Below, one piece after another: positions 7,391 to 33,278 of a DNA stretch of 45,548 nucleotides. The stretch is from assembly GCA_024278175.1 (NCBI GenBank), contig JAJRTS010000074.1, positions 1 to 45,548 on the forward strand. Reading direction: 5' to 3'. Position 1 is the first letter of the stretch; each line of letters begins with the position of its first letter. This DNA comes from Gemmatimonadales bacterium (GTDB lineage: Bacteria > Gemmatimonadota > Glassbacteria > GWA2-58-10). The position numbers were made by a program, and so were the translations under genes. The notes beneath the pieces were generated by a model, which had not been told where the DNA came from, ran no database searches, and worked only from the letters and a program-made list of their open reading frames with translations.

Positions 7391-8734
7391 CTAGCTGATG
7401 CAGGCGTAATACAGCGCCTTGATCGCCCTGTCCGCGTCCTTGTCGTCGACCAGGAACGTGATATTGATCTCGCTGCCGCCCTGGGTAATCATCTCCACGT
7501 TGACCCCCGCGGTGCCCAGCGTGCTGAATACACGGCCGCTCACCCCCGGGGTGTGACGCATACCCTCGCCCACGATACAGATCACTGTCTGGCCCGGCTC
7601 CAGGGTCACGTTGGCGAACTCCTTGAGCTCCTCGACAGCCTTGTCCAGATTCTTGTTATTGTTGATCGTCATCGAGATCGAGACCTCGGTGGTGGCCATC
7701 ATTTCGATATCGATCCCGTACTTGGCGAAAATGTTGAAAATACGGGCCATGTAGCCGCTGGCGCCCAGCATGCTGGTGGACTCGATACTGAGCATTTCAA
7801 TACCCTTCTTATGGGCGATAGCCTTGATTACCTTGTTTTGCTTGATATGCTCGGCGCGGATAGTGGTACCCTCGTCCCCGGGTCTGAACGAGTTGAGAAT
7901 CACCACCGGGATATTCTTGCGCATTGCCGGCTCGATCGTTTTCGGGTGCAGCACGCGCGCGCCGAAAGCCGCCAGTGCCTTGGCCTCGTCGAAACTGATC
8001 ACGTCCAGGCGCTCGGCGTCCGGGACCAGGCGCGGATCGGCGCTACGCATCCCGCTCACATCGGTCCAGATCTGGATCTCCCCGGCCTCGAGCGCCGCGC
8101 CCACCAGCGCCGCGGTGTAGTCACTGCCGCCGCGGCCCAGGGTGGTCACCCTGCCATCGGCTGTATGCCCGGCGAATCCGGGGACAACAAGAACTTTCTC
8201 CTCCGTGCGGAACCTGCCGAGAATCCTGCCCTCGTTCTCCGGCGTCACGGTGGCGTCCTGGAAGTTCTCATCGGTGATTATGTCCAACTCATCGACATCC
8301 ACGCAAACCGCCGGCGTACCCTTGGCGTTCATCACTTCGGCCACGATATGACTCGAGAGGCGCTCGCCGAAACTGAAGACGTCGTCGAGGTATTCCTCAT
8401 AGGGACGGTCCAGATCGCTCAGGGCGTTCCTGAGTTTGGTCCACACCGGGCCGATCAACTCCCATGACAACCCCAGTTCCTTGAGCACTTTCTCGTGCTT
8501 GACCCGAATCTTGTCCAGGTTTTCCTGGTACGGCTTGTGGGCATGCGCCAACTCGGCCATCGCCTCGAGCTGGTCGGTGATTTTGGCCTCGCCGGGTACG
8601 CTGACACCCACCGCGCTCACCACAACAATCGGCCGGCGCTCGGCACGGGATGCTACAATTGCGGCCACGGCCTCGATCCGCTCGGCGGTTGCCACGCTTG
8701 TCTCGCCAAATTTCATTACTAGGCGTCCCATCAT
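7391..8734 (-). CDS. lysC: Aspartate kinase with tandem ACT domains
   Basis: 447 residues. It phosphorylates L-aspartate, the first step to lysine, threonine, methionine and diaminopimelate. The amino-acid kinase domain spans about 1-300. Its N-terminal motif is KFGETSV rather than the usual KFGGTSV, a Gly-to-Glu change at a normally conserved glycine. Other family motifs are intact: SFGERLSS, TLGRGGSDYTA, WTDVSGMRSADPR. Two ACT regulatory domains follow (about 310-375 and 385-447; CIVGEGMRHTPGV, INITFLVDD), consistent with feedback inhibition by an end product. GGAG lies 5 nt from the second ATG (8731), which may be the true start. Monocistronic, with its own promoter and terminator. Confidence 0.93.
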   Translation of the reverse strand: MMGRLVMKFGETSVATAERIEAVAAIVASRAERRPIVVVSAVGVSVPGEAKITDQLEAMAELAHAHKPYQENLDKIRVKHEKVLKELGLSWELIGPVWTKLRNALSDLDRPYEEYLDDVFSFGERLSSHIVAEVMNAKGTPAVCVDVDELDIITDENFQDATVTPENEGRILGRFRTEEKVLVVPGFAGHTADGRVTTLGRGGSDYTAALVGAALEAGEIQIWTDVSGMRSADPRLVPDAERLDVISFDEAKALAAFGARVLHPKTIEPAMRKNIPVVILNSFRPGDEGTTIRAEHIKQNKVIKAIAHKKGIEMLSIESTSMLGASGYMARIFNIFAKYGIDIEMMATTEVSISMTINNNKNLDKAVEELKEFANVTLEPGQTVICIVGEGMRHTPGVSGRVFSTLGTAGVNVEMITQGGSEINITFLVDDKDADRAIKALYYACIS

Positions 8735-8876: not shown

Positions 8877-11800
8877 TTACGCGCCCGGTTCGAATCTACC
8901 GGCGAGCGCTTTGCAAAAATCGCCGAACCGGCTGCTGCCCACTTCCGCCGCCGTTTCCCGCAGCTTTTCGTACAGTGGCCGCGCCCCGGCGATATCTTGT
9001 GGTTCGTACTTTATTTTCCACTCCAGCAGGGCGCGCAGGCTGTACATCAGGTTCTCCGGCTGGCCCGCCCGGCGGGCCTCCTCCAGGCTTTCCTCCAGAG
9101 TTCGGCCGCAAAGAACGCGTTCCCGGTCGCTGGACTGCGGGTCGGCCAGCACGTCCAGGGCCACGTTACGCAGCGCCCAGCTACGACCGAACGTGTCATC
9201 CAGTTCGGCGGAAAGCTTCAGTGCGCTGCCGTGGAAAGAACGGGCCCTGGCAAACTCTCCCTGCCGGCGGTAAATCTCGCCCAGCAGGTTGTCGATATCC
9301 ATCCGCTGCATGTTCCAGCCGCCCCGGCGGGCCAGCCTGTCCGCTGGCAGCAGCACCTTGAGCGCCTCCTTGCCGCGGCCCAGGGTATGCAGCAACTCGG
9401 CCAGGTTGTAGCGCGTACCCACCACAAACTCCATGTAGCCGATCCGCCGGCCGATATCGAGCGCCTGAGTGTACCACGGCTCGGCCTGTTCGTACTGCTC
9501 CATGAACATGTAGCACTCGCCGATATTGAATTTCAGCGCGGCCAGTTCGCGCGTGGGACCCACCAGCGTCTCCAGGCGGTCGTGCTCCGCGCTCAGGGTT
9601 TCCAGCGCCCGGCCGTTGCGTCCGCTGTCGTTGTCGACCACGGCCATGTTGATCCGCACCATGATCTCGGTCTTGACGTCGCCGATAGAGGCCGCCAACT
9701 CCAGCGCCTTGCGGAGCCAGACCAGCGCTTCTTCCAGCTTGAATCCCCTCGAGAGCGCCAGCCCCCGCGAGTTGTAGAGTTGCGCCCTGATCCGGCGGAA
9801 GCGCTCCTCGCTCTCGTCGTCCACCATACCCAGGGCGAAATCGTAGGTTTCCACCGCCTCGTCCATCCTGCCCCGGCGCGCCGCCACGCTGCCGCGGTTA
9901 CGCAGCAGGGTCGCCAGGAAAATACGCCCCTCCTCGTCCATCCCGCCTGCGGCCACCTGCCTAAAAACCTGCTCGGCCCGGTCCAGACAGGTTATCGCCT
10001 GAGCGGTGCTGCCCAGTTCCATCAGGGCGCGGGCGTGGGCGTTGAGGATTTCCGCCAGCAGGCGCGAAACCTCCCCGCCCAGTTTTTCCTCCGCCTGAGA
10101 GAACAGTTCCGCCGCGGCGGTATAATCGCCGGGCAGCGCCCGCTGGAACAAGGTCTGCCCCTGAAGGTAAAGCGCCTTGATCGTTTTTTCGCTATCACCG
10201 AGTTTCCCGGCCAGATCGGCCAGTTTAACGAAATCCGCCAGCGCGTCGTCGTAGCGGCCCAGCAGCAGGTTTACCTGGCCGCGTTGCTCGTGGAGCACGG
10301 TCCGCTTGCTGTCCGCACCGGCAACCCGGTACTCGTCCAGCAGCTTCCCGGCTCGCCCGAACAGCATCAGGCTCTTCTCGTTGTCAAAGATGCGGCGGGC
10401 CAGCTTGCCGGCCTCCAGATAGAACGTGGCGGCCTTGCCGGGAATCTCGGCATGCGAGTAATGCAGCGCGGTCAGCAGGGCCTTCTCGAAAGCGTTGGCC
10501 AGCTCGGTGTCCTCGAACGTGGCCGCCACCTGGCCGTGGAGCCGTTTGCGAAGAGTGGGCACCAGCTCCTGATAGAGCTTTTCGCCGATCAGCGCCCGCT
10601 TGAACGTGTAGACCCAGTCCGGGTCCTTTTCGTTCTCCAGCCGGGTGATCTCCTTGCCTGTCAGGTGGGAGAAAAGCTCTTCCAGGTCCCTGCCGGCGAA
10701 CCGGCCGGCCTGGTCGGCCTGGGGCAGGAAACGGCGGATGATAATGTAGCGCAGGATATTGCCCAGCACGCTGGAATAGCGGATAGCCGCGTGCTCGTCG
10801 CTGCTGAGCATCGCGATCCGCTCCTCGATCACCCCCTGGATCCTGTTGGGGATAGTGACCGTGCCGAAATTCTCGGCGTCGAACCGGGTGCAGCGGCCGT
10901 CGACAACGGTGATCAGCTCCTGCTCGAGCAGCTTGCCGCAGAACTCGATAATGAAAAACGGGTTGCGCTCGAGCTCTTCCTCCACCCGGTGGACCAGCTC
11001 CGGGGGCAGCTCTCCGGCGGCACGCTCCTGATCGATTCCCAGCACGAGCGCCGCCAGCGTTTTGACCGCCCGCGGCTTGAGCAGACCCGGGCGGAATTCG
11101 TGGCGCTCCACGGGCAGGGATTTATCTCTGAGCACTCCAAGCTGGGCGCGGCTGCGGGCGTTGAGCGCCACCACCAGCCCCCCACCGGCGCGGCGAAGGA
11201 TAAAACCGAGCAGGTGCAGGCTGTTGCGGTCCGCCCACTGCAGGTCGTCGATACAGAGCAGGGCCGCGCCCCCCCGGCTGCGCGCCTTGTCGGCGGCGGT
11301 GCGAAAGATATCGGCCGCGCACTGGTAAAAAAGATTGCGCCTCTGCTCGGCGTCCAGCGCCCGCGAGAAAGAAGTCTCCGGGATCCGCAGTCCCAGGAAC
11401 GAAGCCATCACCGGAGCCCGCGCCTCCGGGCTTGCGCCAGCGCTATCCAGGGTGGCCAGCACACCGGCGATCCTGTGGCCGATCTCCTGTTCGCCCTCGT
11501 TGCCGCCGAGGCCGAACACCTGTTCCCTGAGGATTTTGATAAACGGGAAGAACGGGTAAGCGCCCTCGTCGCTGTGGCTCTCGGCAACTCCGCTGTCGCG
11601 CTGGATCTCGCCGGTATCGGGCCGGTCTCCCTGGTACCAGCTATAGCACTCGCCGAACCAGACAGGCCAGCCCTTGTCCAGCGCCCAGCCCGCCACCTCG
11701 GCTATCCGGCGGGTCTTGCCCACGCCGCTGGAGGCCACCAGCGAGATCAGCGCGGGCCGCTGGCTCGCGCCGTCGGCTGTACGTTCTAACGCACCCATCA

Positions 11801-13631
11801 TCCGGCGCAGGCGGCTGTCGGCGCGCATGTCGCGCTCGGTGCGGACCACCCGGCCCGCGGATGTGACCAGCGGGTAGCGCCTGAGGCGGGCGATAAACTC
11901 AGCGACACTCTCCAGCTCCCGGCGCCGGTGAAGAGCATAGAGCGCCACCGGCCTGCTGAAACCCTTCAGTTCGGCCTCGCGTACGGGCGGCTCGGGATGG
12001 ACCAGGTGCTCCAGCTTGCGGCGCTGTGAATCGACCGTGAACAGGGTCCCCGGCGGATGAACGAAAGCGCCCCCACGCCCTGTCTCCAGCGCCTCGTTGA
12101 CCAGCCGGGCAGCCAGGTTGCAGTCCGGCCCGATAATGGTTTGCTCGTTATTGACGATATTATCTCCGGCCGGACCCTGCAGCGCCTTGCCCACGCTCAT
12201 CCCACCGCGGATTTCCACGTCGGGGCCGAACTTATGGCCCAGCCGCGCGCCAAGATCGCGCCAGGCGTTCCAGAGGATTTCGGCGTAGTACATCTCGCCG
12301 CCCACGCGCTGGCCGAACTCGGTGCCCAACACACCCATCAGGTTGAAATGCCCCTTGGGAAAAATATTGTACTTGTAGTGGATCCCGAAACGGTCCATCA
12401 CCACGTGGACCTCATCGGCCAGTTCGTTCAGCATAGCAGTGTCCCGCAGGGAGAAATTGCAGAACAGCACTCCGCTGTCACGCACCGATGAACAAGCTTC
12501 ATCGAGCAGGATATTGCGCCGCGCATCTTTGCCCAGCCTGCGCACCAGGTACTCGGTCATGCCGGCGGTGGTAAAATACGGCTCCACCTTGAGCACCTGA
12601 CCGGCCAGCGATTGCACCATCACCGCCAGCCCCCCGGCGTCCATCAAGCGCAGCTCCGCCGGGGCCGCGCCCGGCTCGGGAATTGTTGCCGAGCAGACCT
12701 CGGCCACGAAACCCTCGAGCTTGCGCATCCCACTTGCGCGGATCACCAGCTTGCAGAACCCATCGCGAAGCTCCGACAGGGCCAGGTCCCGTGGCTCAAG
12801 ACCCAGCCAGCCCCCGGCCAGCAGCTCGTCCAGCCTGCCGCGGCAGATGCTGTCGATCCCGATCCCCTTGACCTCCGGCTCACTTGGGAACACCTGCTCG
12901 TCATTGCCGCCCAGTTTCTCGGCGCGGGCCACCCTGGTGCCCGCCGCTCCCCAGGTGATCCGGGCCTTGATCCGGCTGCCGTAGAACCCGCTGCCGGGGT
13001 CCTGCTCGAACACCAGCCCGCCGCTGGCCTTGACCACCAGGTTATCGATAAAGCCGCCGATCTCGTCCTGGCGGGGTTTGCCGGCCAGCTTGCGGCGCAG
13101 TTCCTCGCGCACTTCCAGCGTGACCCGCGGCATACAGGCACGGATGGCGAGGATCACTTTCAGGGCGGCCACGCCACGGTCGCCGCAGTTGTGCTCGTCG
13201 CGGAAATGCTCCAGCACCAGACCCATCTTGTTCAGGCAGAAGCGGTTGAGGATGCCGAGGTTCATGATGTCCCCGGCCTCTTCCTTGCCGAAACGGTCCG
13301 TGAGAAAAGTGAGCAGGGCGGTAAACCCGCTCACATCGGCGAAAAAAAGGTAGCTGCCCCCGGAGCTGTGGTTGCGGAAGTAACCCAGGATGGCGTCGCC
13401 GCCGCGCTCGCTGATCCCGTAGTCGGGGTCGCGGGCGGGTACGAACAGCGAGAGGTTATGCTGAAGGTTGGAAAGATAACTCCACAGCGAGAGCAGGTCC
13501 GCGTGAGCCAGCGAGGCCAACTCGTCCCTGGCGAAACGCTCCGCCCAGGCGGGGTGAAGCTCACCCAACAGAGCGGCCATCCGCTGCAACGCCGGGTCTC
13601 CGCCCGCTTGCCGGGCACGGCGCCTGCTCAT
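8877..13631 (-). CDS. Giant soluble-adenylyl-cyclase-like protein (C1-C2 cyclase-like, NTPase, TPR), copy 1
   Basis: 1584 residues with the same domain order and size as animal soluble adenylyl cyclase (ADCY10). C1-like region ~85-245 starts with FADVSGFT (first metal Asp99). C2-like region ~385-565 carries QTIIGPDCNLAAR, with Thr498, Asn505 and Arg509 in the substrate and transition-state positions. A STAND/AAA-type NTPase follows: Walker A ASSGVGKT 633-640, Walker B LLCIDD 791-796 then LQWAD. About 700 residues of TPR-like helical repeats complete it. C1 appears to lack the GGDxxKFxGD hairpin that supplies the second metal Asp. No signal peptide, so cytoplasmic. RBS GGAG, 6 nt; the start overlaps the upstream paralogue stop by 4 bp. 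Whether it makes cAMP is unknown. Confidence 0.82.
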   Translation of the reverse strand: MSRRRARQAGGDPALQRMAALLGELHPAWAERFARDELASLAHADLLSLWSYLSNLQHNLSLFVPARDPDYGISERGGDAILGYFRNHSSGGSYLFFADVSGFTALLTFLTDRFGKEEAGDIMNLGILNRFCLNKMGLVLEHFRDEHNCGDRGVAALKVILAIRACMPRVTLEVREELRRKLAGKPRQDEIGGFIDNLVVKASGGLVFEQDPGSGFYGSRIKARITWGAAGTRVARAEKLGGNDEQVFPSEPEVKGIGIDSICRGRLDELLAGGWLGLEPRDLALSELRDGFCKLVIRASGMRKLEGFVAEVCSATIPEPGAAPAELRLMDAGGLAVMVQSLAGQVLKVEPYFTTAGMTEYLVRRLGKDARRNILLDEACSSVRDSGVLFCNFSLRDTAMLNELADEVHVVMDRFGIHYKYNIFPKGHFNLMGVLGTEFGQRVGGEMYYAEILWNAWRDLGARLGHKFGPDVEIRGGMSVGKALQGPAGDNIVNNEQTIIGPDCNLAARLVNEALETGRGGAFVHPPGTLFTVDSQRRKLEHLVHPEPPVREAELKGFSRPVALYALHRRRELESVAEFIARLRRYPLVTSAGRVVRTERDMRADSRLRRMMGALERTADGASQRPALISLVASSGVGKTRRIAEVAGWALDKGWPVWFGECYSWYQGDRPDTGEIQRDSGVAESHSDEGAYPFFPFIKILREQVFGLGGNEGEQEIGHRIAGVLATLDSAGASPEARAPVMASFLGLRIPETSFSRALDAEQRRNLFYQCAADIFRTAADKARSRGGAALLCIDDLQWADRNSLHLLGFILRRAGGGLVVALNARSRAQLGVLRDKSLPVERHEFRPGLLKPRAVKTLAALVLGIDQERAAGELPPELVHRVEEELERNPFFIIEFCGKLLEQELITVVDGRCTRFDAENFGTVTIPNRIQGVIEERIAMLSSDEHAAIRYSSVLGNILRYIIIRRFLPQADQAGRFAGRDLEELFSHLTGKEITRLENEKDPDWVYTFKRALIGEKLYQELVPTLRKRLHGQVAATFEDTELANAFEKALLTALHYSHAEIPGKAATFYLEAGKLARRIFDNEKSLMLFGRAGKLLDEYRVAGADSKRTVLHEQRGQVNLLLGRYDDALADFVKLADLAGKLGDSEKTIKALYLQGQTLFQRALPGDYTAAAELFSQAEEKLGGEVSRLLAEILNAHARALMELGSTAQAITCLDRAEQVFRQVAAGGMDEEGRIFLATLLRNRGSVAARRGRMDEAVETYDFALGMVDDESEERFRRIRAQLYNSRGLALSRGFKLEEALVWLRKALELAASIGDVKTEIMVRINMAVVDNDSGRNGRALETLSAEHDRLETLVGPTRELAALKFNIGECYMFMEQYEQAEPWYTQALDIGRRIGYMEFVVGTRYNLAELLHTLGRGKEALKVLLPADRLARRGGWNMQRMDIDNLLGEIYRRQGEFARARSFHGSALKLSAELDDTFGRSWALRNVALDVLADPQSSDRERVLCGRTLEESLEEARRAGQPENLMYSLRALLEWKIKYEPQDIAGARPLYEKLRETAAEVGSSRFGDFCKALAGRFEPGA

Positions 13632-16600
13632 CGTTGCTCCTCGCTCATTTTTCCCTTACTTCCGCCGTGCCTGCGGTAGATTTCGAGATATTTATCGTTG
13701 TTGACCTTGCGGGCCAGCGCGCCCAGCTCCTCCAGCACCCGAGCGCGGAAGTCCGCTTGCAGGCCAAGCTCGTCCCAGTTGTCCAGCAGCGAGATCAGGG
13801 TAACGGCCAGGTTTTCCGGCTGGCCGGCCTTGCGGCAGAATTCCAGCGATTCCTCCAGTAACTTTCCTGCTTCCCGCCGGTTGGCCTCTCCGCTCATTTT
13901 CAGCAGGTCGGCGGCCAGGTTGCGCAGGCTCCAGCCCGTGCCGAAATCGTCGTTTAGCTCGCGGGCGACAGAGATGGCGCTGCGATGGCGCTCGCTGGCA
14001 GCATCCAGGTTGCCGTCGACCATGTCCATCTCGCCCAGAATATTCTCCATGTCCAGCAGTTGCTGACGGTAACCGTGGCGACGGGCCAGGCGGGCACCGG
14101 CCTCCAGCACCCGGCGGGCCTCCTCGTTCTTGTCCTGGTCCCGAAGAGCCTCGCCCAGATTGTACATCACGTTAACCCCGAACTGGCGGCTGCTGATCCG
14201 CTGTGTGATCTCCAGAGCGCTGCGATAGTGCTTCTCCGCCCTGGCGGGATCACCCATGAAGTGGTAGCACTCGCCGATATTGAACTCGAACCCGGCCAGT
14301 GCCCGGCTCTCGCCGGCCAGTTTGTGGATCGTGTCGTAGTTGGAGACCAGCAGATCGAGGGCCTTCGTGTTCTCGCCCGAGTCGTTGAGCGTTACGCTCA
14401 TGTTGTTCAGGATCAGCAGCTGAAGGTTTACATCGCCCACCTTGCGGGCCAGCGAACGGGCCTTGTAGAATGTCTGCAGGGCTTCCGGCAGCTGGAACGC
14501 CATCGAGAGGCAGATCGCTTTCGTGTTGAGCAACTGGGCCCTGACCGGCATGAACTCGGCCCCGTCGCCCGCCGCCGCTATCATCGCCAGCGCCTCGTCG
14601 GCGGCCTGAACGCCCTGCTTGCTGCGCCCCAGCCTCATCCGGACAGTGGCCAGGGTGCGGATCATCCTGGCGCGGAGGATAATTGTGCGCGGGTCGTCCA
14701 TGTCCGCACCCACGGCCTCGAACCCCTCCAGCGCACTCAGCGTCATTTTTTCCGTCTTCTCGATATCGCCGGTCTCCAGCAGCACCCGCGACTGCCCGTT
14801 GCGGGCCTCCAACACCAGCAGCGGGAAACCGGACGCCAGCTTCCCGGCCCGGGCGAAGCTGGCGAGCGCACGGGCGAAATCATCCCGGGTGGCGCGGGTA
14901 AGGTAGGTACTGCCGGCAAGCAACTCGGCCCGCGCCCGTTTTTCGGGCAATTTCAGGCGCACGGCGGTTTTCTTCAGGCCGACGCTGTCGGCCAGGGCCT
15001 GCTCGTAGCTGCCCAGAGCCAGGGCGATCTTGCAGCGGGACTCGTGCATTTGCAGGCGCAGCCGGGCCGCCCCGTCCAGGCGGTGCTCGGCCAGGAAGCG
15101 CTCTACCCGGCTCAGCAGCCCCACAGCCCTCTCGTTTTCGAACAGCTCCCCGGCCATTCGTCCGGCGGCAAGATGGAACTGCGCGCCCTTCTGCGGTAAC
15201 TCGGCCAGCTCGTAGTGCAGCGCGCAGTTGAGGTTTTTCTCCAGGGTTTGCTCGTCCCCGCGCTCCCAGATCCGGCCCGCCACGGCGTGGAGCCGCTTGC
15301 GCTGGGAGGGGGTTATGCCCTGGTAGAGCGACTGGCCGATCAGGGCGCGGCTGAAGTGGTAGACCGAGTCGGCGGCGCTGTCAACCTCGATTTCAAGCAC
15401 CTGTCGGCCGGTCAGGGCATGCAGGCTCTGTTGTGCCTGCTCAGGAGCAAGCGCCGCCGACTCGGCTGAATTTATCTCGGCCACGTCGCGGCAACGCAGT
15501 ACGTTACCCAGCACGGAGCCGTTGCGAATCAGGTCGAATTCCCGTCTCGGCAGGGCGTTGATCAACTCCTCGATAACCGACTGCACCCGGTTGGGCACGC
15601 TCATCGTGGCAAACGCCCGCTGATCGAAGCGCACGAGCTTGCCCTCACGGACGAACACCACCTCGCCGGCCAACAGCTTGCGGCAGAACTCGGTGATAAA
15701 AAGCGGATTGTTTTCCAGCTCGGCCAGGCGGCTTTCCAGCGCGGCGGGAAGGTTCTCGCCTGCCGACAGGCCAAGAGATACCCCGGCAAGGGCGCGCACG
15801 CCCTTGCGCGAGAGCGCTTTGGCCTCGAGCAGCATGAACCCGGTCCGCCCCCCGCCCCCCCCATCGTCCACCAGCGTCTCCAGGCGTTCCCTCTCCCGTG
15901 CGGCAGCGCAGAAGAGCAACCCGCCGCCGATCCGGCTCATCAGGAATCCCAGCAGGCTGATGCTGCCGCTGTCCGCCCACTGGAGGTCATCGATAACCAG
16001 CAGTATTCGTTTGCCGTGAGCGGCAATCAGCGCCTCGAACAGCGCGGCCACCTGCTCGAAAAACACGTTACGCCTCTCCTCGGGCGAGAGCGAATCCAAT
16101 AAGCCGTCATCGCCGCGGTCGATCCCCAGGAAAGAGGCCAGCACGGCCAGCTCCCGCTCCCCGGCTCCCGTACCCCGCAGGCTGCGGGAAACGCTACGCA
16201 GCTTTTCCAGCGCCTCGGCCGGCGAATCGTTGCCCCGGATACCGAACACCTGGCCGTTGAGTACCTTGATAAACGGGTGGAACGGTACAGCCATATCTTC
16301 CGCCCGGCTCTTGCCCCGCCCCTCCTGTGCGCCCTGGTAGTAGCTCATGCACTCCGACCAGAGCACCCGCCAGCCGTCCCCGGCGCAGGTGTACATTATC
16401 TCCGCCAGCCGGCGCGTTTTGCCCAGCCCGGGCCGGCCGTAGAAACCCAGCATCCGGTTGACCTGCCTGCGCCGCCCGCCGAAATCGCTAACAAACGCCC
16501 TGGCCGCGGCCAGCAGCCTGTCTCCCCCGGCGGCGGCGCCACCGCCAAGAATCTCACCCTGATCGGTAACAAGCGGGAAGCGACGCAGGCGCGCGGCAAG

Positions 16601-18277
16601 CTCCACAGCCGACTCCTGCTCCTCGCGGCCGGTGAGAGTATATAACGGAACCGGTTCACGGAAGCCTTTGAGTTCGGCGCGCTCGAACGGCTCCACAGGG
16701 GTGACCAGGTGCTCCACCCGCGCGTAGCTCTCCCGTGCGGCCAGCAACGAACCGGGCGATTCCTTTCGTACCAGCGCCCTGGCCACCAGCCGCGCGGCCA
16801 GGTTGCAGTCCGGCCCGATAATGGTCAACTCGTTGTGCAGCAGGTTGTCGCCCACGGGACCCTGCAGGCACTGGCCCACGCTGAGGCCCGCACGCAACCG
16901 GACACTTTGGCCGAAATTGCGGCCGGTCTCCGCCAGCAAATCCCGCCAGCATTGCCAGAGCACCTCGGTGTAGAACCGCTCGGTCTCCGGCGCACCGGCC
17001 ACCTCCATGCCCAGCGAGGCCATCAGGTTGAAATCGCCCAGCGGAAAGATATTGTACTTATAGACCAGCCCGTAACGGGTCATCACGCGGTGGATTGCAT
17101 CCGCAAGCTCGCCCAGCAGGGCGCCGGAGGAAATGTTGAAATTGGCGAACAGGATGCCGGTCTCGTGCACACGGCTGGAGCGCTCATCAAACAGGTTGGA
17201 CAACTTGGCGCCGGGTCCCAGCCCCCGCACAACCTGCTGGACCAGCTCGCCGCCCTGAAGGTAGGGTGCGCTGCTTTCGATAGCGCGGACGATATCGCCG
17301 ATACCTTTTGCCGCTCCGCCTGGTTCACCGGTTGCTATTGACTTTTCGAAGCGGCCGATTTCATCCCATGTGCGTTCGGCCAGGCGGTCCATGCCGCGAG
17401 GGGTAAGCACGAGCTTGGTGAATTCACCGAAGCGCCGGGTGCGATAGTCGCCCTTCCGGAGCCAGCCGGTGGCGAGCAATTGCTCAACTCCACTGGCCGA
17501 GGCGTCGTCGTACCCCACACCCTTGACCTCGGCCAGGCGCTCGTGGACTTTCTCATCGCTGCCGCCCACTTTCTCGCTGCCCGCCAGGTGGCGGGCGCTA
17601 CGGCCCCAGGTGATCCGCGAGCGCGAGGTGGAACCATAGAATTCGCTGCGGCCATGGCTCTGTCCGGCCACAACCCCGGCGCTGGCCTTGATCTCCAATC
17701 CCTCGATAAACTTGCGGATTTCGTCCTGGTGGGGTTTTCCGGCCAGCTTGCGGGTGAGTTCCCCGCGCACTTCGGCAGTAATCGTGCCCAGGATCGAGCG
17801 GAAAGCGATTGCGCTCTTGAGGGCATCGGCGGCCGGGTCTGTATCCTCGCGCACCCCGGCCTGTCCGTAACAGGCGATCAGCACGCCCATCCGGTTGAGG
17901 CAGTAGCGGTTGAGGATGCTCATGTTCATGATGTCGCCGGCTTCCTGCTTGCCGAAGCGGTCGGTGAGAAAGGTGAGCAGCTTGGTGAATCCGCTCACAT
18001 CAATCATCACGTAGCTGGGCCTGAGTCCGGTGCGGCCCGGACGTTTGAAATAGGCCACCACGGCATCGCCGCCGCGCTCGGTAACGCCGTAGGCGGGGTC
18101 CGAGGCCGGGACGAACAGGCTCAGTCCGCGGCTCACACCGGCCAGATATGTTTTTACTTTACCGAGTTGTTTAGCTGTTAAAGACTTTCCCGGGGCAAGA
18201 GAACGAACCCAGCCCGGGTGGTAAACCGAGAGGATATTCCGGAGCGTTGCGAGGTTGGATTTGTTCAGATCGGGCAT
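13628..18277 (-). CDS. Giant soluble-adenylyl-cyclase-like protein (C1-C2 cyclase-like, NTPase, TPR), copy 2
   Basis: 1549 residues from ATG 18277 (GGGAG, 4 nt upstream); an in-frame TTG at 18307 gives 10 more residues but no RBS. It is a full-length paralogue of the following gene. C1-like region: MIDVSGFT, Asp93, then LTFLTDRFGKQEAGDIMN, almost identical to copy 1. C2-like region: LTIIGPDCNLAAR, with Thr485, Asn492, Arg496. NTPase: GRPGLGKT 614-621 and LLVIDD 759-764. A long TPR tail includes NIGECYHFMGDPARAEKHY-type repeats. The second metal-Asp hairpin of C1 is missing here too. Second gene of an apparent L,D-transpeptidase/cyclase-like/cyclase-like operon. The two products may pair as a heteromeric sensor; that is inference. 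Confidence 0.82.
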   Translation of the reverse strand: MPDLNKSNLATLRNILSVYHPGWVRSLAPGKSLTAKQLGKVKTYLAGVSRGLSLFVPASDPAYGVTERGGDAVVAYFKRPGRTGLRPSYVMIDVSGFTKLLTFLTDRFGKQEAGDIMNMSILNRYCLNRMGVLIACYGQAGVREDTDPAADALKSAIAFRSILGTITAEVRGELTRKLAGKPHQDEIRKFIEGLEIKASAGVVAGQSHGRSEFYGSTSRSRITWGRSARHLAGSEKVGGSDEKVHERLAEVKGVGYDDASASGVEQLLATGWLRKGDYRTRRFGEFTKLVLTPRGMDRLAERTWDEIGRFEKSIATGEPGGAAKGIGDIVRAIESSAPYLQGGELVQQVVRGLGPGAKLSNLFDERSSRVHETGILFANFNISSGALLGELADAIHRVMTRYGLVYKYNIFPLGDFNLMASLGMEVAGAPETERFYTEVLWQCWRDLLAETGRNFGQSVRLRAGLSVGQCLQGPVGDNLLHNELTIIGPDCNLAARLVARALVRKESPGSLLAARESYARVEHLVTPVEPFERAELKGFREPVPLYTLTGREEQESAVELAARLRRFPLVTDQGEILGGGAAAGGDRLLAAARAFVSDFGGRRRQVNRMLGFYGRPGLGKTRRLAEIMYTCAGDGWRVLWSECMSYYQGAQEGRGKSRAEDMAVPFHPFIKVLNGQVFGIRGNDSPAEALEKLRSVSRSLRGTGAGERELAVLASFLGIDRGDDGLLDSLSPEERRNVFFEQVAALFEALIAAHGKRILLVIDDLQWADSGSISLLGFLMSRIGGGLLFCAAARERERLETLVDDGGGGGRTGFMLLEAKALSRKGVRALAGVSLGLSAGENLPAALESRLAELENNPLFITEFCRKLLAGEVVFVREGKLVRFDQRAFATMSVPNRVQSVIEELINALPRREFDLIRNGSVLGNVLRCRDVAEINSAESAALAPEQAQQSLHALTGRQVLEIEVDSAADSVYHFSRALIGQSLYQGITPSQRKRLHAVAGRIWERGDEQTLEKNLNCALHYELAELPQKGAQFHLAAGRMAGELFENERAVGLLSRVERFLAEHRLDGAARLRLQMHESRCKIALALGSYEQALADSVGLKKTAVRLKLPEKRARAELLAGSTYLTRATRDDFARALASFARAGKLASGFPLLVLEARNGQSRVLLETGDIEKTEKMTLSALEGFEAVGADMDDPRTIILRARMIRTLATVRMRLGRSKQGVQAADEALAMIAAAGDGAEFMPVRAQLLNTKAICLSMAFQLPEALQTFYKARSLARKVGDVNLQLLILNNMSVTLNDSGENTKALDLLVSNYDTIHKLAGESRALAGFEFNIGECYHFMGDPARAEKHYRSALEITQRISSRQFGVNVMYNLGEALRDQDKNEEARRVLEAGARLARRHGYRQQLLDMENILGEMDMVDGNLDAASERHRSAISVARELNDDFGTGWSLRNLAADLLKMSGEANRREAGKLLEESLEFCRKAGQPENLAVTLISLLDNWDELGLQADFRARVLEELGALARKVNNDKYLEIYRRHGGSKGKMSEEQR

Positions 18278-18343
18278 CTGACTCCCGGCCAATTGACGTG
18301 GGGGCAAGAGTGCGGAGCTGCAAGCCGATCCCGGGGGGAGCGG

Positions 18344-19252
18344 TTACATCCGGCTGATTCTCTCCGAGAGAATCCGGAAGCCGTCCCCATCGCGGGTAAG
18401 GTAGAGTTTCTTGCGGCCCACCGAATGGTAGCGGTCGGAACGGTACTCTTGGTTGAAACTGACCACCAGGTAGTTGTGAAAAGCGTAAACGTTGATATCG
18501 GTCAGGGTTACTTCGATTTTTTTGTACGCCCTGTTGAGCCTCTGCTTATGGGCGCGGTGCTGGGCCTTGGTGCGACCGTAGCCGGCAAAACGTTCGTCGT
18601 AGCAGGCCATGTAGTCATCGAGCCGTTTCCCCTCCCAGCTCGATTTCCAGGCGGCGATAAACTCCAGCACGCTTGCCCGCGCGGAATCGTACTGATCCCC
18701 GGATTCCATGTGCAGGCTGTCATCGACAATGATCGGCGTGTCCCAGAGGGTGATATAATCGCTGAGCTCCATGATATCCGCGTTGGTAACCACAACACAG
18801 CCCTCCGTGTCGTAGCTTTTCTCCACCCGCTCGTCCTCGTCGACAGCGTGGAGCCAGATTCCGCTGCCGCTCTTGTGGCGCAGACGGTCGAAATCGTTGG
18901 GATAGTCCATCACGAAAGCACGCAGACCGTACTTGGCGGGAAGCTGCTCATCTTCGAGGATACCGCGGAAGAAATAGACGCCGTTGGGGGTCTTGAGGTC
19001 TCCCTCGCGCAGCTTGGTGCCGTTGTTGTTACGGCCCGTGGTGCAGCGGAAGCGTTTGTAAAGGCGGGGGCCGCCCTCGCCGCCGCGGTAGAGATAAAGC
19101 TCCTGCTCCTGCTTATCGACCAGCAGGGCATAGTCGCCGCCATCGCGGCCCATCTCCAGCAGGTACGCCGGTTTGTCCTGCTTCGGCAGCGCAGCGCCCA
19201 CAATGAGCGGAAACAGAAACACAATCGCCACGGCCAGCATCCGAATCCGCAT
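18344..19252 (-). CDS. Secreted YkuD-type L,D-transpeptidase with C-terminal NTF2-like domain
   Basis: 302 residues with an N-terminal signal peptide (cut near residue 20). The YkuD domain is at ~40-175: a basic strand YALLVDKQEQELYLY, the TPNGVYFF motif, His135 (GIWLHAVD) and catalytic Cys152 in DTEGCVVV. The usual S-x-G-C is here T-E-G-C. Residues ~185-302 resemble a SnoaL/NTF2-like fold often fused to such enzymes. Members cross-link peptidoglycan stems or attach proteins to them in the periplasm. A strong promoter lies upstream and only 66 bp separate it from the cyclase-like gene, so it probably leads that operon. Confidence 0.85.
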   Translation of the reverse strand: MRIRMLAVAIVFLFPLIVGAALPKQDKPAYLLEMGRDGGDYALLVDKQEQELYLYRGGEGGPRLYKRFRCTTGRNNNGTKLREGDLKTPNGVYFFRGILEDEQLPAKYGLRAFVMDYPNDFDRLRHKSGSGIWLHAVDEDERVEKSYDTEGCVVVTNADIMELSDYITLWDTPIIVDDSLHMESGDQYDSARASVLEFIAAWKSSWEGKRLDDYMACYDERFAGYGRTKAQHRAHKQRLNRAYKKIEVTLTDINVYAFHNYLVVSFNQEYRSDRYHSVGRKKLYLTRDGDGFRILSERISRM

Positions 19253-27266: not shown

Positions 27267-28052
27267 ATGATCAAGGGACTCTACACCTCGGCCGGCGGGA
27301 TGCTGCCGCTGCAGTTCCGCCAGGACCTGGTGACCAACAACCTGGCCAACTCCAATACGGCGGGCTTCAAGCAGGACCAGGCGTTTGTCCGCGAACTGGT
27401 CACCGCCGATCTCTATCTGAATGAAAACCAGATCGCGTCTACCGGTAAGCGCCCGCCGATGGTAAACGTCTCCCCGCCGGCGTTCCGCGCCGCGGTGGGT
27501 GATGCCAGCCAGGTGGTCCAGCAATACACTGATTTCAGCCAGGGCCCGATGCAGGCTACAGGCAACGCGCTCAACCTGGCGCTCGATGGTGACGGTTTCT
27601 TCACTGTCCAGACTCCCGGCGGGACGCAGTACACCCGCAACGGCTCGTTCAGCATCAACGAGAACGGTGAGCTGGTGACCGCGCAGGGCCACGTTGTGCT
27701 GGGCGATGGCGGCCCGATCAACGTCTCCGGCGGCACGATCAACGTGCTGACCAACGGCAATGTCGCGGTCGAAGGGGTCGTGCGCGGCAACCTTCGCATT
27801 ACCGATTTCCCCAAGCCCTACGAGATGACAAAGATCAGCGACAGCCTCTTTGTGCCCCAGAGCGGTGGAACGGGCCAGGCCGCGGAAAACGTGACCGTTA
27901 ACCAGGGGATGATCGAGGGCAACAACGGCAACCCTCTGGATCAGTTGGTCAAGATGATTGAAATATCGCGAATGTTCGAGTTGGGACAGCGGGCGATCCG
28001 CCTGCAGGACGAAACCCTGCAGCAGGCGGTGACCCAGGCCGGCCGGATCTGA
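27267..28052 (+). CDS. flgF: Flagellar basal-body rod protein FlgF
   Basis: 261 residues. N-terminal rod motif YTSAGGMLPLQFRQDLVTNNLANSNTAGFKQD, a central FlgE/F/G domain (LDGDGFFTVQTPGGTQYTRNGSFSINENGELVTAQG) and the C-terminal rod helix ISRMFELGQRAIRLQDETLQQ. It forms part of the proximal rod in the periplasm, exported by the flagellar type III system without a cleaved signal. Strong purine-rich RBS (GGAGAGAGG). First gene of the block. Confidence 0.93.
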   Translation: MIKGLYTSAGGMLPLQFRQDLVTNNLANSNTAGFKQDQAFVRELVTADLYLNENQIASTGKRPPMVNVSPPAFRAAVGDASQVVQQYTDFSQGPMQATGNALNLALDGDGFFTVQTPGGTQYTRNGSFSINENGELVTAQGHVVLGDGGPINVSGGTINVLTNGNVAVEGVVRGNLRITDFPKPYEMTKISDSLFVPQSGGTGQAAENVTVNQGMIEGNNGNPLDQLVKMIEISRMFELGQRAIRLQDETLQQAVTQAGRI

Positions 28053-28110
28053 TAACGGGCCGGGACACCGTGATCTCTCTACCTTTCAGACTGAAGCACT
28101 GGAGCGAAAA

Positions 28111-28899
28111 ATGATGCGAGCAATCCGTACCGCCGCCACCGGGATGAAAGCTCAGGAAGTGCGGGTGGACATAATCTCCAACAACCTGGCCAACGTCAAC
28201 ACCGCGGGTTTCAAAAAAACCCAGGCCCAGTTCCAGGACCTGCTCTACCAGACCCTCCGCCCGGCGGGCGTGGTGGAGTACGAGGGCCTGGTGGTGCCCA
28301 CCGAGTTGCAGGTCGGCCACGGGGTCAAGCTCTCGAGCACCCAGAAAGTGTTCACCCAGGGCACGATGAACAAGACCGGCAACAATCTCGATCTGGCGGT
28401 TATCGGCGACGGGTTCTTTCAGATCCTGATGCCCGATGGCACCACGGCCTATACCCGTGATGGAAATTTCGAGATCAGCCAGGACGGAATCCTGGTCACC
28501 ACCGAGGGCCTGCCGCTACAGCCGTCAATCACTATTCCGCAGACCGCGATGGATATCTCGGTGGGCGCCGACGGTAACGTGGACGTAATCCAGTCCGGAC
28601 AGGTCCAGCCCCAGAACGTGGGCCGGATCGAACTGGCAAGGTTTATCAACCCCGCCGGGCTGCGCAATATCGGCGACAACCTGTTCACCGAAACCATAGC
28701 CAGCAACACTCCGATCCTGGGCAACCCGGCCGAGAACGAGTACGGCAGTATCGAGAAAGGCTACCTGGAGCTGTCCAACGTCTCGGTGGTCGATGAGCTG
28801 GTGGACCTGATTACCGCCCAGCGCATCTACGAACTGAACTCGCGGGGCATTTCAATAGCGGATACCATGATGCAGGTGGCGACCAGTATCGGCCGCTGA
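28111..28899 (+). CDS. flgG: Flagellar distal rod protein FlgG
   Basis: 262 residues of the usual length. N-terminus MRAIRTAATGMKAQEVRVDIISNNLANVNTAGFKK; middle LAVIGDGFFQILMPDGTTAYTRDGNFEIS; C-terminus LVDLITAQRIYELNSRGISIADTMM, the family signature. It builds the distal rod that crosses the L and P rings. RBS GGAG is 6 nt from ATG 28111; the next codon is also ATG. It follows flgF by 58 bp. Confidence 0.96.
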   Translation: MMRAIRTAATGMKAQEVRVDIISNNLANVNTAGFKKTQAQFQDLLYQTLRPAGVVEYEGLVVPTELQVGHGVKLSSTQKVFTQGTMNKTGNNLDLAVIGDGFFQILMPDGTTAYTRDGNFEISQDGILVTTEGLPLQPSITIPQTAMDISVGADGNVDVIQSGQVQPQNVGRIELARFINPAGLRNIGDNLFTETIASNTPILGNPAENEYGSIEKGYLELSNVSVVDELVDLITAQRIYELNSRGISIADTMMQVATSIGR

Positions 28900-28955
28900 A
28901 CCTGAAAACGTGTTTTTTTTCAACACTCTGATAATGCTTAACGGATAAAGTCAAG

Positions 28956-29939
28956 ATGAGACTCGCACTTATCACATCTTTTGCGGTTCTGCTCGGTACG
29001 TTTACCGCTGTTGCCCAGCAGCCTCCTCCGGACCTGGGAGCCACCCGGGCGTTCGTCTATCTCGACAGCAGCGTCACGGTGTCCGGCGCACAGATCAAGC
29101 TGGCGGACGTGGCCGCGGTCAGCGGGCTCGACGACGAGTTGATCGGCAAGCTGGAAAACATGCCTCTGGGCCAGTCTCCTCTTCCCGGCAAAACGCTCAC
29201 TATCGAACGCAGCGACATCCGCAGGCAGATGGCCAGCTGGCGAATCGACGCCGTGCGGGTGGCGATCACCGGCAGTAACGAAGTTTACGTGCAGCGCAAG
29301 GGACGCAAGGTTGCCGGCGGCGAGATCACCGCGCTGATCGACCGCTGGGTGGCCGATTCCTGGCGCGACCAGGACGTGCGCACCGAGGTGGTCTATACCC
29401 GGATGCCCGACAGGCTGGCGCTGGAACACGAGGAGTTCACCCTGCGCGTACTCGATCCGCTCAGGCGACACGTTACCGGTTCGATAGCGCTCTCCGTGGC
29501 CGCCATGGACGGTGACCGGGTGCTGGCCCGCTTTCCCGTTTCACTCATGGTGCGCGCCTGGCAGGAAGTGGTCGTGGCCGCCGGCGATCTGGGCAGGGGA
29601 GAGATTATCACCAGCGACGACATCGCGTTCGCCGAGCGCGAGTTGAACAACCTGCGCGGCGCATCGATCAATGCGGTCGATGATGTGGTGGGCAAGCGCC
29701 TGCTGCGCCGGATTCGCGCCGGAGCGGTTATCACCGCCGCCCACCTGGAGAACCCGCCGCTGATCGAACGCGGAGACGATGTGTTTCTGATAGTGCAATA
29801 CAACGGCATCACTGTCGGCTGCGCGGGCAAGGCCTCGCAAAAAGGTGTCCGCGGCGACAGAATCCTGGTCCGCAACCAGTATGGCAGAAATCTCACCGGT
29901 GTGATCAAGGACGAGCACACCGTGGTGATTACCCCTTAA
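28956..29939 (+). CDS. flgA: Flagella basal-body P-ring assembly chaperone FlgA
   Basis: 327 residues with a Sec signal peptide (cut after ~AVAQ). The C-terminal SAF/ChapFlgA domain at ~195-325 includes VVVAAGDLGRGEIITSDDIAFAE, VVGKRLLRRIRAGAVITAAHLENPP and the terminal VRNQYGRNLTGVI. It is periplasmic and helps FlgI polymerise into the P ring. The position between flgG and flgH is a common non-enteric order. A weak RBS suggests coupling to flgG expression. Confidence 0.93.
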   Translation: MRLALITSFAVLLGTFTAVAQQPPPDLGATRAFVYLDSSVTVSGAQIKLADVAAVSGLDDELIGKLENMPLGQSPLPGKTLTIERSDIRRQMASWRIDAVRVAITGSNEVYVQRKGRKVAGGEITALIDRWVADSWRDQDVRTEVVYTRMPDRLALEHEEFTLRVLDPLRRHVTGSIALSVAAMDGDRVLARFPVSLMVRAWQEVVVAAGDLGRGEIITSDDIAFAERELNNLRGASINAVDDVVGKRLLRRIRAGAVITAAHLENPPLIERGDDVFLIVQYNGITVGCAGKASQKGVRGDRILVRNQYGRNLTGVIKDEHTVVITP

Positions 29940-29959
29940 TGAAGAAAAGGAACCCAGCG

Positions 29960-30610
29960 ATGAGAACCGCGCAAAGCAAACAGACACAACATCGGCCGCC
30001 CCGCACCGATTGCCGTGCCGCCGGGCAACTGGCCCGCAGCGTGGCCGTGGCCGCCTGCCTGGTGTTGACACTGAGCGCTCAGGCGTTCGCCCAGCTCGAG
30101 TTCAAGGGCAATGTCGCCAGCCTGTTCAGCGATGAGCGCGCTTACAAGGTGGGCGATGTGATCACGGTGGAAATCAATGAGCGGCTCCAGGGCCAGAACA
30201 ACTCCCAGTTCCGCAGCCAGCGCAGCAATGACATCTCGGCCGAGTTCGGCGCGGGCAAGGTATTCGGCTTGTTCAACCCGTTCGCCGGCGACATAAGCAC
30301 CCAGAACGATTTCGACTCGCGTGTGCAGAACAGAAAGCTTACCTCTTTCACCACCCAGGTCAGCACCAGGGTGATCCGCACCGACGATCTTGGCAACCTG
30401 TACCTGGAAGGCAGCAAGGTAATCAACCTGCCCGACGAGCAACAGGTAGTCGTGCTCTCCGGCGTGGCCCGCAGCCGCGATGTCAGCCAGCAGAACAGTA
30501 TTCTCAGCTCACAGATCGCGGACCTTCACGTAACCCTGAAGGGCAAGGGCGAGGCCGAAGACGCGCGCAAGCCCAGCCTGTTCGCCCGTATTTTCCAGTG
30601 GTTCTTCTAA
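29960..30610 (+). CDS. flgH: Flagellar L-ring protein FlgH
   Basis: 216 residues from ATG 29960, preceded by AAGGAA; an upstream ATG at 29939 overlaps the flgA stop (TAATG) and adds 7 residues. The export signal ends around SAQAFAQ. Core motifs: SLFSDERAYKVGDVITVEINERLQGQNNS, SRVQNRKLTSFTTQVSTRVI, LYLEGSKVINLPDEQQVVVLSGVARSRDV. FlgH is normally an outer-membrane lipoprotein. Here the only early Cys (VAAC) sits inside the hydrophobic stretch, so lipidation is doubtful. It forms the outer-membrane bushing around the rod. Confidence 0.92.
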   Translation: MRTAQSKQTQHRPPRTDCRAAGQLARSVAVAACLVLTLSAQAFAQLEFKGNVASLFSDERAYKVGDVITVEINERLQGQNNSQFRSQRSNDISAEFGAGKVFGLFNPFAGDISTQNDFDSRVQNRKLTSFTTQVSTRVIRTDDLGNLYLEGSKVINLPDEQQVVVLSGVARSRDVSQQNSILSSQIADLHVTLKGKGEAEDARKPSLFARIFQWFF

Positions 30611-30659
30611 CGGCCGGGACGCACCTCTTCAGGGTAATCCAGGGAGCGAGTTAAGGAAC

Positions 30660-31799
30660 ATGAACTTTTTCTTCGAAAATAAATCCGCCGTGGTTCTGGC
30701 GCTGGCCACGGCGGCGCTGATGCTGCTCTGCCCCGCCTCCCGCGCTGCGCGGATCAAGGATATCGCCCACGTACAGGGCACCCGCAGCGAACAGCTTATC
30801 GGCTACGGCCTGGTGGTGGGACTCAACGGCACGGGTGATGGCAGGTCGCTCTTTACCAACCAGTCCACTGCCAGCATGCTCAACAAGTTCGGCGTCCAGG
30901 TGGACCCCGGCGACATCAAATCCCAGAACGTGGCCGCCGTGATGGTCACGGCCAGCCTGCAGAGTTTCGACAAGCCCGGCGGCACTCTGGATGTAACTGT
31001 CAGCTCGGTCGGTGAGTCGAGCAGCTTGCAGGGTGGTGTACTGCTGCGCACCCAGTTGTTCGGCTACGACGGCAAAACACTCTACGCCGTGGCCCAGGGG
31101 CCCGTTTCAATCGGCGGGTTCAACGTGGGCGCGCAGTCGGGAGGCGGCGGCGCCGGCGCGTCGATCCAGCGCAACCATCCCGTGGTGGGACGCGTACCCG
31201 GCGGAGCGCAGATCTGGCGCGCGCTGGAAGTGGGCTTTATCGACGACTGGCGGATCATGCTCACTCTGGAGAGCAGCGATTTCACCACCGCCCGCAGGCT
31301 GGACCAGGTGGTGGACAACCATTTCGGCAGTGATATCGCCCTGCCTATCGACGGTCTCTCGGCCTATGTAACCATCCCCGAGGAGTACCGCGACCCGGGG
31401 CGGATAATCGAGTTCATCAGCGAGTTGGAAAACCTTGACGTCACCCCGGCCACCAGCGCGCGCGTGGTGATCAACGAGCGTACCGGTACGATCGCTATCG
31501 GTGAGAACGTTTCAGTCACTCCGGTACAGATCGCCCACGGCGGCCTGACAGTTACTATCGGCACGGGCATGTCTGTCAGCCAGCCCTCCACCCCGCTGGG
31601 TGGAGGCGCGGCTTTGGTAACTCCCACCGCCGCGGCCAGCGTTGTGGAACAGGTGCGCAAGTTTATCGAGATGGGCGGCACCGCCGGCGACCTGGTAACC
31701 GCGCTCAACGTCATGCAGGTCACACCTCGCGACATTATCGCCATTTTTCAGGCGCTCAAGGAAGCCGGAGCGCTTAACGCCAAACTCGTAATTATGTGA
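30660..31799 (+). CDS. flgI: Flagellar P-ring protein FlgI
   Basis: 379 residues, signal peptide ~1-29 (ends ASRAA). It then begins RIKDIAHVQGTRSEQLIGYGLVVGLNGTGD, the FlgI hallmark; QNVAAVMVTASLQSFDKPGGTLDVTVSS, an internal ERTGTIAIGENV motif and a C-terminal TPRDIIAIFQALKEAGAL confirm the family. It assembles the P ring in the peptidoglycan layer. The usual length indicates an intact gene. Confidence 0.97.
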   Translation: MNFFFENKSAVVLALATAALMLLCPASRAARIKDIAHVQGTRSEQLIGYGLVVGLNGTGDGRSLFTNQSTASMLNKFGVQVDPGDIKSQNVAAVMVTASLQSFDKPGGTLDVTVSSVGESSSLQGGVLLRTQLFGYDGKTLYAVAQGPVSIGGFNVGAQSGGGGAGASIQRNHPVVGRVPGGAQIWRALEVGFIDDWRIMLTLESSDFTTARRLDQVVDNHFGSDIALPIDGLSAYVTIPEEYRDPGRIIEFISELENLDVTPATSARVVINERTGTIAIGENVSVTPVQIAHGGLTVTIGTGMSVSQPSTPLGGGAALVTPTAAASVVEQVRKFIEMGGTAGDLVTALNVMQVTPRDIIAIFQALKEAGALNAKLVIM

Positions 31800-31811
31800 T
31801 CGGAGTCCTGC

Positions 31812-32720
31812 GTGAGCAGCGGCATGGACATGCTTTCCTTTCCCGCAAGCGCCAGTATGATGAACGCGGCCAATCAGAACCTGGAGTCCAGCCTGCGCGT
31901 TCTCCAGCAACGCACGGAGAACGCGGACGGCGAGGAGAAGGCCCTGCGCCAGGTGAGCCGGGACATGGAGTCGTTGTTTGTTAAAATGCTGCTCGACTCG
32001 ATGGACAAGACCGTGCCGCGCGGGAAAGATTCCTGGGACAACAGTCAGGCCACGCAGACCTGGCGCGGCATGTTGAACGAAGAACTGGCCGGACAACTGG
32101 GCGAAAACAGTCCTATCGGCCTGGCGGACATGATCTACAAGCAGTTATCCGGGGACATGGCGCGACACATGGAAGTGCCGCCCGCCGCCGCCGCGCCCGT
32201 CCAGGAGGCTACTCCCGGCGAAACCGGCGGCGCGCCGCCGCTGGTGCCCCAGGCTCCCCTGGCGCCTGAGAAACCAGCGGCGCCCCAGCACTCCTCGGCC
32301 ACACAGCGCGTTCGCAGCCTTCGCGGCCTGATTGAGCGCGCCGCGGCCGACGAGGGAGTCGATCCGGCGCTGGTGGCTGCGATGATCGCCCAAGAGAGCG
32401 GCGGCGATCCCGAGGCGGTAAGTCCCGCCGGGGCGCGCGGGCTGATGCAGTTGATGCCCGCCACGGCCAGGATGCTGGGTGTGGAGGATGTTTTCGATCC
32501 GCTGCAGAACGTGAGCGGTGGCGTGCGCTATATCAGCCAGTTGCTGGAACGTTTCGGCGGAGAAGAAAAACTGGCCCTGGCCGCCTATAACGCCGGACCC
32601 GGCACCGTGGATCGCTACGGAGGCGTGCCTCCCTACCGCGAAACCACCGACTATGTTAAACGCGTGGCCCGGCTCAAGACGGATTTCCGCGAGCTGGGCT
32701 TCGGAGGGGACGGAGTGTGA
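31812..32720 (+). CDS. flgJ: FlgJ rod-cap domain fused to SLT-type lytic transglycosylase
   Basis: 302 residues from GTG 31812 (GGAG 8 nt upstream). Residues ~40-115 are the FlgJ rod-binding domain (LRQVSRDMESLFVKMLLDSMDKTVP ... WRGMLNEELA). A Pro/Ala linker follows (~118-165). The goose-lysozyme-like SLT domain at ~170-295 has AAMIAQESGGDPEAVSPAGARGLMQLMPATA, with the catalytic Glu in QES, and LALAAYNAGPGTVDRYGGVPPYRETTDYV. It caps the growing rod and opens peptidoglycan for it. Enteric FlgJ instead carries a GH73 glucosaminidase, so the muramidase module has been swapped. Confidence 0.92.
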   Translation: MSSGMDMLSFPASASMMNAANQNLESSLRVLQQRTENADGEEKALRQVSRDMESLFVKMLLDSMDKTVPRGKDSWDNSQATQTWRGMLNEELAGQLGENSPIGLADMIYKQLSGDMARHMEVPPAAAAPVQEATPGETGGAPPLVPQAPLAPEKPAAPQHSSATQRVRSLRGLIERAAADEGVDPALVAAMIAQESGGDPEAVSPAGARGLMQLMPATARMLGVEDVFDPLQNVSGGVRYISQLLERFGGEEKLALAAYNAGPGTVDRYGGVPPYRETTDYVKRVARLKTDFRELGFGGDGV

Positions 32721-32723
32721 GCA

Positions 32724-33245
32724 ATGGCTGAGCCAGCACGTGGGGACAATGAGCTTGCGGCCGGCAGGATGCATACTCTGCTCGGCGAGATGTGCGACGG
32801 CCTGGACGAGCTCTACAGCTGCCTTCGCCGGCAGCAGAAAGCGCTGGTTCAATGGCGGATGGCCGATTTTCTGGAAACTATCCGGCTTCAGCGCACTCTG
32901 GCCGAGGCAAATATCGACCGCGAGCAGCAGCGCCTTGAACTGGCGGCCATGCTGGTGGGCGAGGGCGACGGCCCGGCAACCAACATCCGCGCTCTGGCCG
33001 AACACCTGGGCGGCCAATGGCCCGCTAAATTCCGCGAGGCGGCCGGACGGATCAGAGTGGCCGGCGCGCGTGTGAACGAGATGAAACGTCAGAACGAAAT
33101 GCTGATCGAGCGCAACCGTACGCTGGTTAACGGCCAGTTGCGCCTGATATTCGAACTGGCCTCTTTAAACCGTAACACTTACGCTCCCAGCGGCCACAAG
33201 GCCGGACGGACCGACATGTACAAGGTGCTGGACCAGCGGGTCTGA
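32724..33245 (+). CDS. flgN: FlgN-type flagellar export chaperone
   Basis: 173 residues, all helical with a long coiled-coil pattern (LLGEMCDGLDELYSCLRRQQKALVQWRMADFLETIRLQRTLAE). The central LNRNTYAPSGH near residue 150 is typical of FlgN C-termini. It escorts FlgK and FlgL to the export gate in the cytoplasm. It begins 3 bp after the flgJ stop and directly precedes flgK. No flgM (anti-sigma-28) gene is found beside it, unlike in many species. Confidence 0.8.
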   Translation: MAEPARGDNELAAGRMHTLLGEMCDGLDELYSCLRRQQKALVQWRMADFLETIRLQRTLAEANIDREQQRLELAAMLVGEGDGPATNIRALAEHLGGQWPAKFREAAGRIRVAGARVNEMKRQNEMLIERNRTLVNGQLRLIFELASLNRNTYAPSGHKAGRTDMYKVLDQRV

Positions 33246-33278
33246 CCACCCGCGGGCCGGACCTGAGAAGGTGTACCG

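Follow-up and report, generated by a model that had tools for sequence, protein, structure and literature searches.

Giant paralogous proteins of Glassbacteria are probably soluble-adenylyl-cyclase-like enzymes with a rewired C1 domain

Introduction

In animals, soluble adenylyl cyclase (sAC, ADCY10) carries two cyclase domains, C1 and C2, in tandem, followed in the same long chain by a P-loop region of the STAND type (PMC12802110). Within the palm of the class III fold, strand beta3 adjoins beta1, and it is on beta1 that the Asp47-type metal ligand sits. The metal ligands of sAC are Asp47 and Asp99, the latter belonging to an AGD loop between strands 2 and 3 of C1; these assignments, and the roles given below to the remaining catalytic residues, follow published work (PMC12867704, PMC12250328). 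A STAND P-loop region is predicted in full-length human sAC, whose specific activity is reported to fall when P-loop-like sequence is included (PMC12802110). Other proteins related to class III cyclases, such as the DUF2652 cyclase-like proteins and PycC of Pycsar, are divergent in the same sense as those reported here; unlike ours, the former are described with the usual strand order (PMC4886424) and PycC has the usual spacing of 44 between its aspartates (PMC11224242).

Here we describe two adjacent genes, A and B, found in a window of 45,548 nucleotides (the whole stretch of DNA analysed, contig JAJRTS010000074.1 of the Gemmatimonadales bacterium assembly GCA_024278175.1). On the evidence of sequence comparison and structure models, their products are probably topologically rewired sAC-like cyclases, and are predicted to be active. 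The new point lies in the rewired C1, in what is a very old enzyme family: the hairpin expected to carry the second metal ligand precedes beta1, an arrangement for which we found no description among class III cyclases in the open-licence literature. An earlier note on this DNA had recognised the paralogous pair, and this hairpin, the most unusual feature of the locus, was absent from it.

Results and Discussion

Two giant paralogues with the layout of sAC

Both genes lie on the minus strand and are transcribed in the order B (13628..18277, 1549 residues from its ATG), then A (8877..13631, 1584 residues); an in-frame TTG at 18307 would extend B to 1559 residues. The stop codon of B and the start codon of A overlap by 4 nt in an ATGA (13628..13631, minus strand), and the two proteins are 42% identical across almost their entire length, so that the pair of overlapping paralogous giants seen in the earlier note is borne out. 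Upstream, 66 nt from the ATG of B, is an L,D-transpeptidase gene (18344..19252, minus strand; YkuD and Cds6_C by Pfam), whose Cds6_C portion is an NTF2-like C-terminus; downstream is an aspartate-kinase-like gene (7391..8734, minus strand; AA_kinase and ACT).

A and B share a single layout, in which a helical cap is followed by C1, C2, an AAA_16/STAND-type NTPase and a TPR region, all encoded on the minus strand. For A, these are C1 at residues 65-300 (12732..13439, delimited by the model and by fold and profile comparison), C2 at residues 376-575 (11907..12506), the NTPase at residues 600-980 (10692..11834, with Walker A ASSGVGKT and the motif IDDLQWAD) and the TPR region at residues 1115-1560 (8952..10289, by Pfam); for B, they are C1 at 17408..18109, C2 at 16583..17230, the NTPase at 15428..16495 (Walker A GRPGLGKT) and the TPR region at 13688..15040 (by Pfam). 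AAA_16 and numerous TPR repeats are matched by Pfam in both proteins, and each chain has, as in sAC, a C1-C2 tandem joined to a STAND P-loop region.

The cyclase domains are less readily recognised, and in this A and B differ from sAC. Searched whole against Pfam, neither has a cyclase match at E <= 0.01; over nine N-termini of the family the Guanylate_cyc cut-off is never reached (best E 0.13), and C2 of B scores 14.3 bits against a cut-off of 21.9. Because the Pfam cyclase matches fall below cut-off, the cyclase call rests on profile-profile comparison, a match to CyaB and fold matching. Compared with a class III profile built from 25 cyclase domains, C2 gave 97% and C1 88%. A profile search of the PDB returned a weak match to CyaB (E 1.4e-4) for C2 only, and C1 alone had no relevant match in that search. 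An AlphaFold2 model of residues 1-599 of A, built from a nine-row alignment (mean pLDDT 72.6, pTM 0.71), was matched against the PDB by fold, and the first 18 matches are all catalytic cores of human sAC (E 2.2e-8, probability 1.00), with TM scores that are modest, at 0.36-0.42 by query and 0.45-0.52 by target. The modelled C1-C2 region thus has a cyclase fold, and the sAC-like architecture that had been proposed from the letters alone, with NTPase and TPR repeats behind the N-terminal domains, is upheld by this structural check. When C1 of B was used alone in a sequential fold search, cyclases took the first places, although with weak scores (E 0.021, TM about 0.35), which fits a rewired topology and also a strongly divergent domain. 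For C1, our claim is that the domain resembles a cyclase and acts like one, and it does not extend to ordinary class III membership.

Membership of Pycsar was considered and dropped: the PADLOC Pycsar models have no match in A or B, where the hits were confined to TPR models and a weak one to mads_8, and PycC keeps the usual aspartate spacing.

A hairpin ahead of beta1 in C1

In both proteins, the beta2-beta3 hairpin of C1, carrier of the second metal-binding aspartate (Asp99 in sAC), is absent from its normal position. The usual slot holds no hairpin and no aspartate conserved across both A and B; most A sequences have a GD there, which in the AlphaFold2 model runs into a helix. What is found instead, in each of the ten sequences of A and B, is a GITERGGDAILGY-like hairpin with an invariant Asp ahead of beta1, of consensus G-[IV]-[ST]-E-R-G-G-D-A-[IV]-[LVI]-[GA]-Y, located 20-22 residues ahead of the first Asp. 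In A, this hairpin spans residues 71-86 (13374..13421, minus strand), with D79 at 13395-13397, and beta1 spans residues 93-101 (13329..13355, minus strand), with the invariant D99 at 13335-13337; in B, the hairpin covers residues 73-88 in the numbering that starts at the TTG of 18307 (18044..18091, minus strand), with invariant Asp 81. The second aspartate is therefore displaced by -20 to -22 relative to the first in A and B, as against +44 in 17 out of 17 ordinary cyclases and +50 or +52 in two other sAC-like giants. The earlier note had placed the first cyclase-like domain at about residues 85-245; the domain stands, but must begin near residue 65, since its own hairpin precedes beta1.

The models agree with this arrangement. 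In that of A, the motif is a two-stranded hairpin with its turn at G78-D79, located before beta1, and the same hairpin appears in the same place in an AlphaFold2 model of C1 of B alone, which is of higher confidence (pLDDT 84.5, pTM 0.86); neither model has hairpin strands in the usual slot. The predicted strand order of C1 is beta2-beta3-beta1-alpha-alpha-alpha-beta4, while C2 has the usual one. Since beta3 lies beside beta1 in the fold, this order could leave the site unchanged in three dimensions and rewire no more than the loops. An assembly artefact was dismissed as an explanation, the hairpin order being identical in both paralogues of several genomes.

Each of the 579 nineteen-residue segments of A (starts 1-579, residues 1-597) was put in turn into the empty beta2-beta3 slot, and the resulting sequences were scored with the class III profile, in a test that was designed after the motif had been noticed, with slot ends (residues 137 and 150) of our own choosing and the native linker removed. 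The top 13 segments all contain the N-terminal hairpin, the best scoring 59.6; segments from elsewhere average 39.7 (sd 2.8) and reach at most 49.4, a value given by the hairpin region of C2 itself, which serves as a positive control. For reference, leaving the order native gives 44.8, and the same construct with nothing inserted gives 37.4. The same hairpin ranks first with A-only and with B-only alignments; the margin is smaller for A alone (53.9 vs 49.4), and for B alone transplantation takes the profile probability from 21% to 91%. Scored as single sequences with a home-made cyclase HMM, the rearranged C1 domains gave weak and uneven scores, the highest being the 10.7 bits of B of G001, with little or no gain for A sequences, and rearranged single sequences still had no cyclase match in Pfam. 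Because these single-sequence scans show no clear effect, support for the relocation comes from profile-profile comparison and the models. We consider it marginally probable that C1 represents a natural class III catalytic domain with a non-circular permutation, in which the metal-binding beta2-beta3 hairpin works ahead of beta1 and catalysis is kept.

Conserved residues and a putative catalytic mechanism

The catalytic residues expected from sAC are D79, D99, K420, T498, N505 and R509 (A numbering), and all six are invariant in the nine rows of the family alignment, which is shallow, and in which 160 of 599 columns (27%) are invariant overall. The last four belong to C2, where the spacing of Thr, Asn and Arg is as in sAC. 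C1 and C2 are also the best conserved parts between A and B, with identities of 49% and 53%, compared with 37% for the NTPase and 38% for the TPR tail (37-40% from NTPase to TPR). Such conservation fits a catalytic core under selection and not in decay, although invariance alone is no proof of catalysis.

We propose, with reasonable confidence, that A and B are paralogous sAC-like signalling cyclases, having a rewired C1 with D79 as a metal ligand and gated by their STAND-TPR portion. Under this proposal, a single intramolecular active site, using the usual chemistry, would arise from the pairing of C1 with C2 within each chain, with C1 supplying the two metal-binding aspartates (in A, D99 and, putatively, D79) and C2 the residues for base recognition and transition-state stabilisation (K420, T498, N505 and R509). 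The beta2-beta3 hairpin of C1 would have moved from after the first helices, where sAC has it, to ahead of beta1. The product may be cAMP or another cyclic nucleotide, and the STAND NTPase and TPR repeats may sense a partner or ligand and so gate the output. One form of sAC regulation appears not to be shared, as the position of the bicarbonate-site Lys95 is an invariant Glu (Glu75) in A and B, so that sAC-like bicarbonate control is not expected; the position of Arg176 is uncertain in the alignment.

The alternative that survives best is that A and B are pseudo-cyclases, in which the second metal ligand has been lost, the GGD hairpin is structural with a chance likeness to the missing one, and C1-C2 serves a STAND signalling protein as a module for binding nucleotides or for scaffolding. 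The sub-threshold Pfam matches, the empty usual slot and the weak fold search with C1 only would all be expected of such a protein; it is set against the superiority of the N-terminal hairpin over every other segment in all registers tested, the invariance of the six residues, and the concentration of A-B conservation in C1 and C2, and we regard it as unlikely. That A and B cyclise a nucleotide other than ATP, such as GTP or a pyrimidine nucleotide, is the least probable reading, for although pyrimidine cyclases take two of the top four places in the fold search with C1 alone, these matches are weak (E 0.021 and 0.16), C2 retains the Lys and Thr used for adenine recognition in sAC, and Pycsar models found no match.

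If our proposal of active, rewired cyclases is correct, a hairpin bearing an essential metal ligand, one that in sAC is under the control of a switch, can change its position in the chain while the enzyme is kept. This would test what the class III topology truly requires, strand order having been treated as a signature of that family, and would show why models of the Pfam type can miss such cyclases. It would also provide a bacterial system in which to study the poorly understood control of sAC-like enzymes by STAND-TPR regions.

Among known proteins, sAC is the closest, sharing the domain order and the six catalytic residue types and being the top fold match of the A N-terminus. By way of the NTPase region, we also found canonical sAC-like giants (L088, L089 and L091) in other families of the same phylum; these have open frames of 1406-1435 residues and the same order of C1, C2 and P-loop NTPase, but unlike A and B they keep the hairpin at its normal place (Asp spacing +50 or +52 where measured), and they are well separated from A and B in the tree, on long branches. 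The TOMM kinase/cyclase fusion proteins (TIGR03903) share the NTPase and the region following it (A residues 694-1075, E 4.3e-19); the match is far under cut-off (67.9 of 705.75 bits) and the C1-C2 region lies outside it.

Distribution of A and B and the relation between them

An N-terminal profile, A1, was run over 395 sampled genomes of one phylum and matched only six, all of a single Glassbacteria family to which the window also belongs; three public records encoding relatives of A are Candidatus Glassbacteria MAGs, and a search of a plasmid collection gave no match. A is present in all six family genomes, and in four of them (G000, G001, G002 and G005) it is adjoined by B, in agreement with the expectation that related genomes would hold the two together. 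The junctions are 4-nt overlaps in G000 and G001, a 5-nt gap in G002 and a 38-nt overlap in G005, where the 5' part of B is on another contig. In G001 (L040:5295-10012), the reading frame of A is broken into two that overlap, possibly by a frameshift or an assembly error.

The earlier note took the coupling of the genes to suggest that the products work together as a heteromeric signalling machine and not as enzymes independent of each other. An obligate heteromer of A and B, with one subunit regulating or completing the other, would agree with the conservation of both paralogues and with genes that overlap or almost touch in four genomes, yet we judge it quite improbable. Each chain has its own C1 and C2 with the full set of expected residues, and so either protein could build a complete active site of the sAC type by itself. 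A and B are on separate contigs in G003, where a group II intron domain (Rfam RF00029, 51.6 bits; L042:6638-6710) occupies the expected junction, just upstream of A where the end of B would be. In G004, which is 99% complete, A is present and B was not found, and the pair is therefore not obligatory. The tree supports a clade of B sequences and does not resolve those of A relative to it, which makes loss of B in G004 likely, not proven. A small ORF (L044:7630-8130) lies between A and the transpeptidase gene of G004, in the place held by B in other genomes.

Matches to cNMP-binding domains number 5-13 per genome in all six genomes; they allow a cAMP response without showing one, as such proteins need not bind cAMP. 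G005 (88% complete) has no Guanylate_cyc match in Pfam.

Wherever the contig permits a view, the gene order is lysC, A, B, L,D-transpeptidase, pseudouridine synthase. The earlier note was correct as to the location of the transpeptidase gene beside the pair; the link looks like general synteny, and a specific partnership was dropped, as the gene keeps its place in G004 in spite of the missing B. Elsewhere in the window is a flagellar cluster encoding hook and rod proteins, FlgA, FlgH, FlgI, FlgN and FlgK (27267-34676), and a 1056-residue ORF within the flagellar genes (35069-38239, plus strand) has a Flagellin_N match at its N-terminal start.
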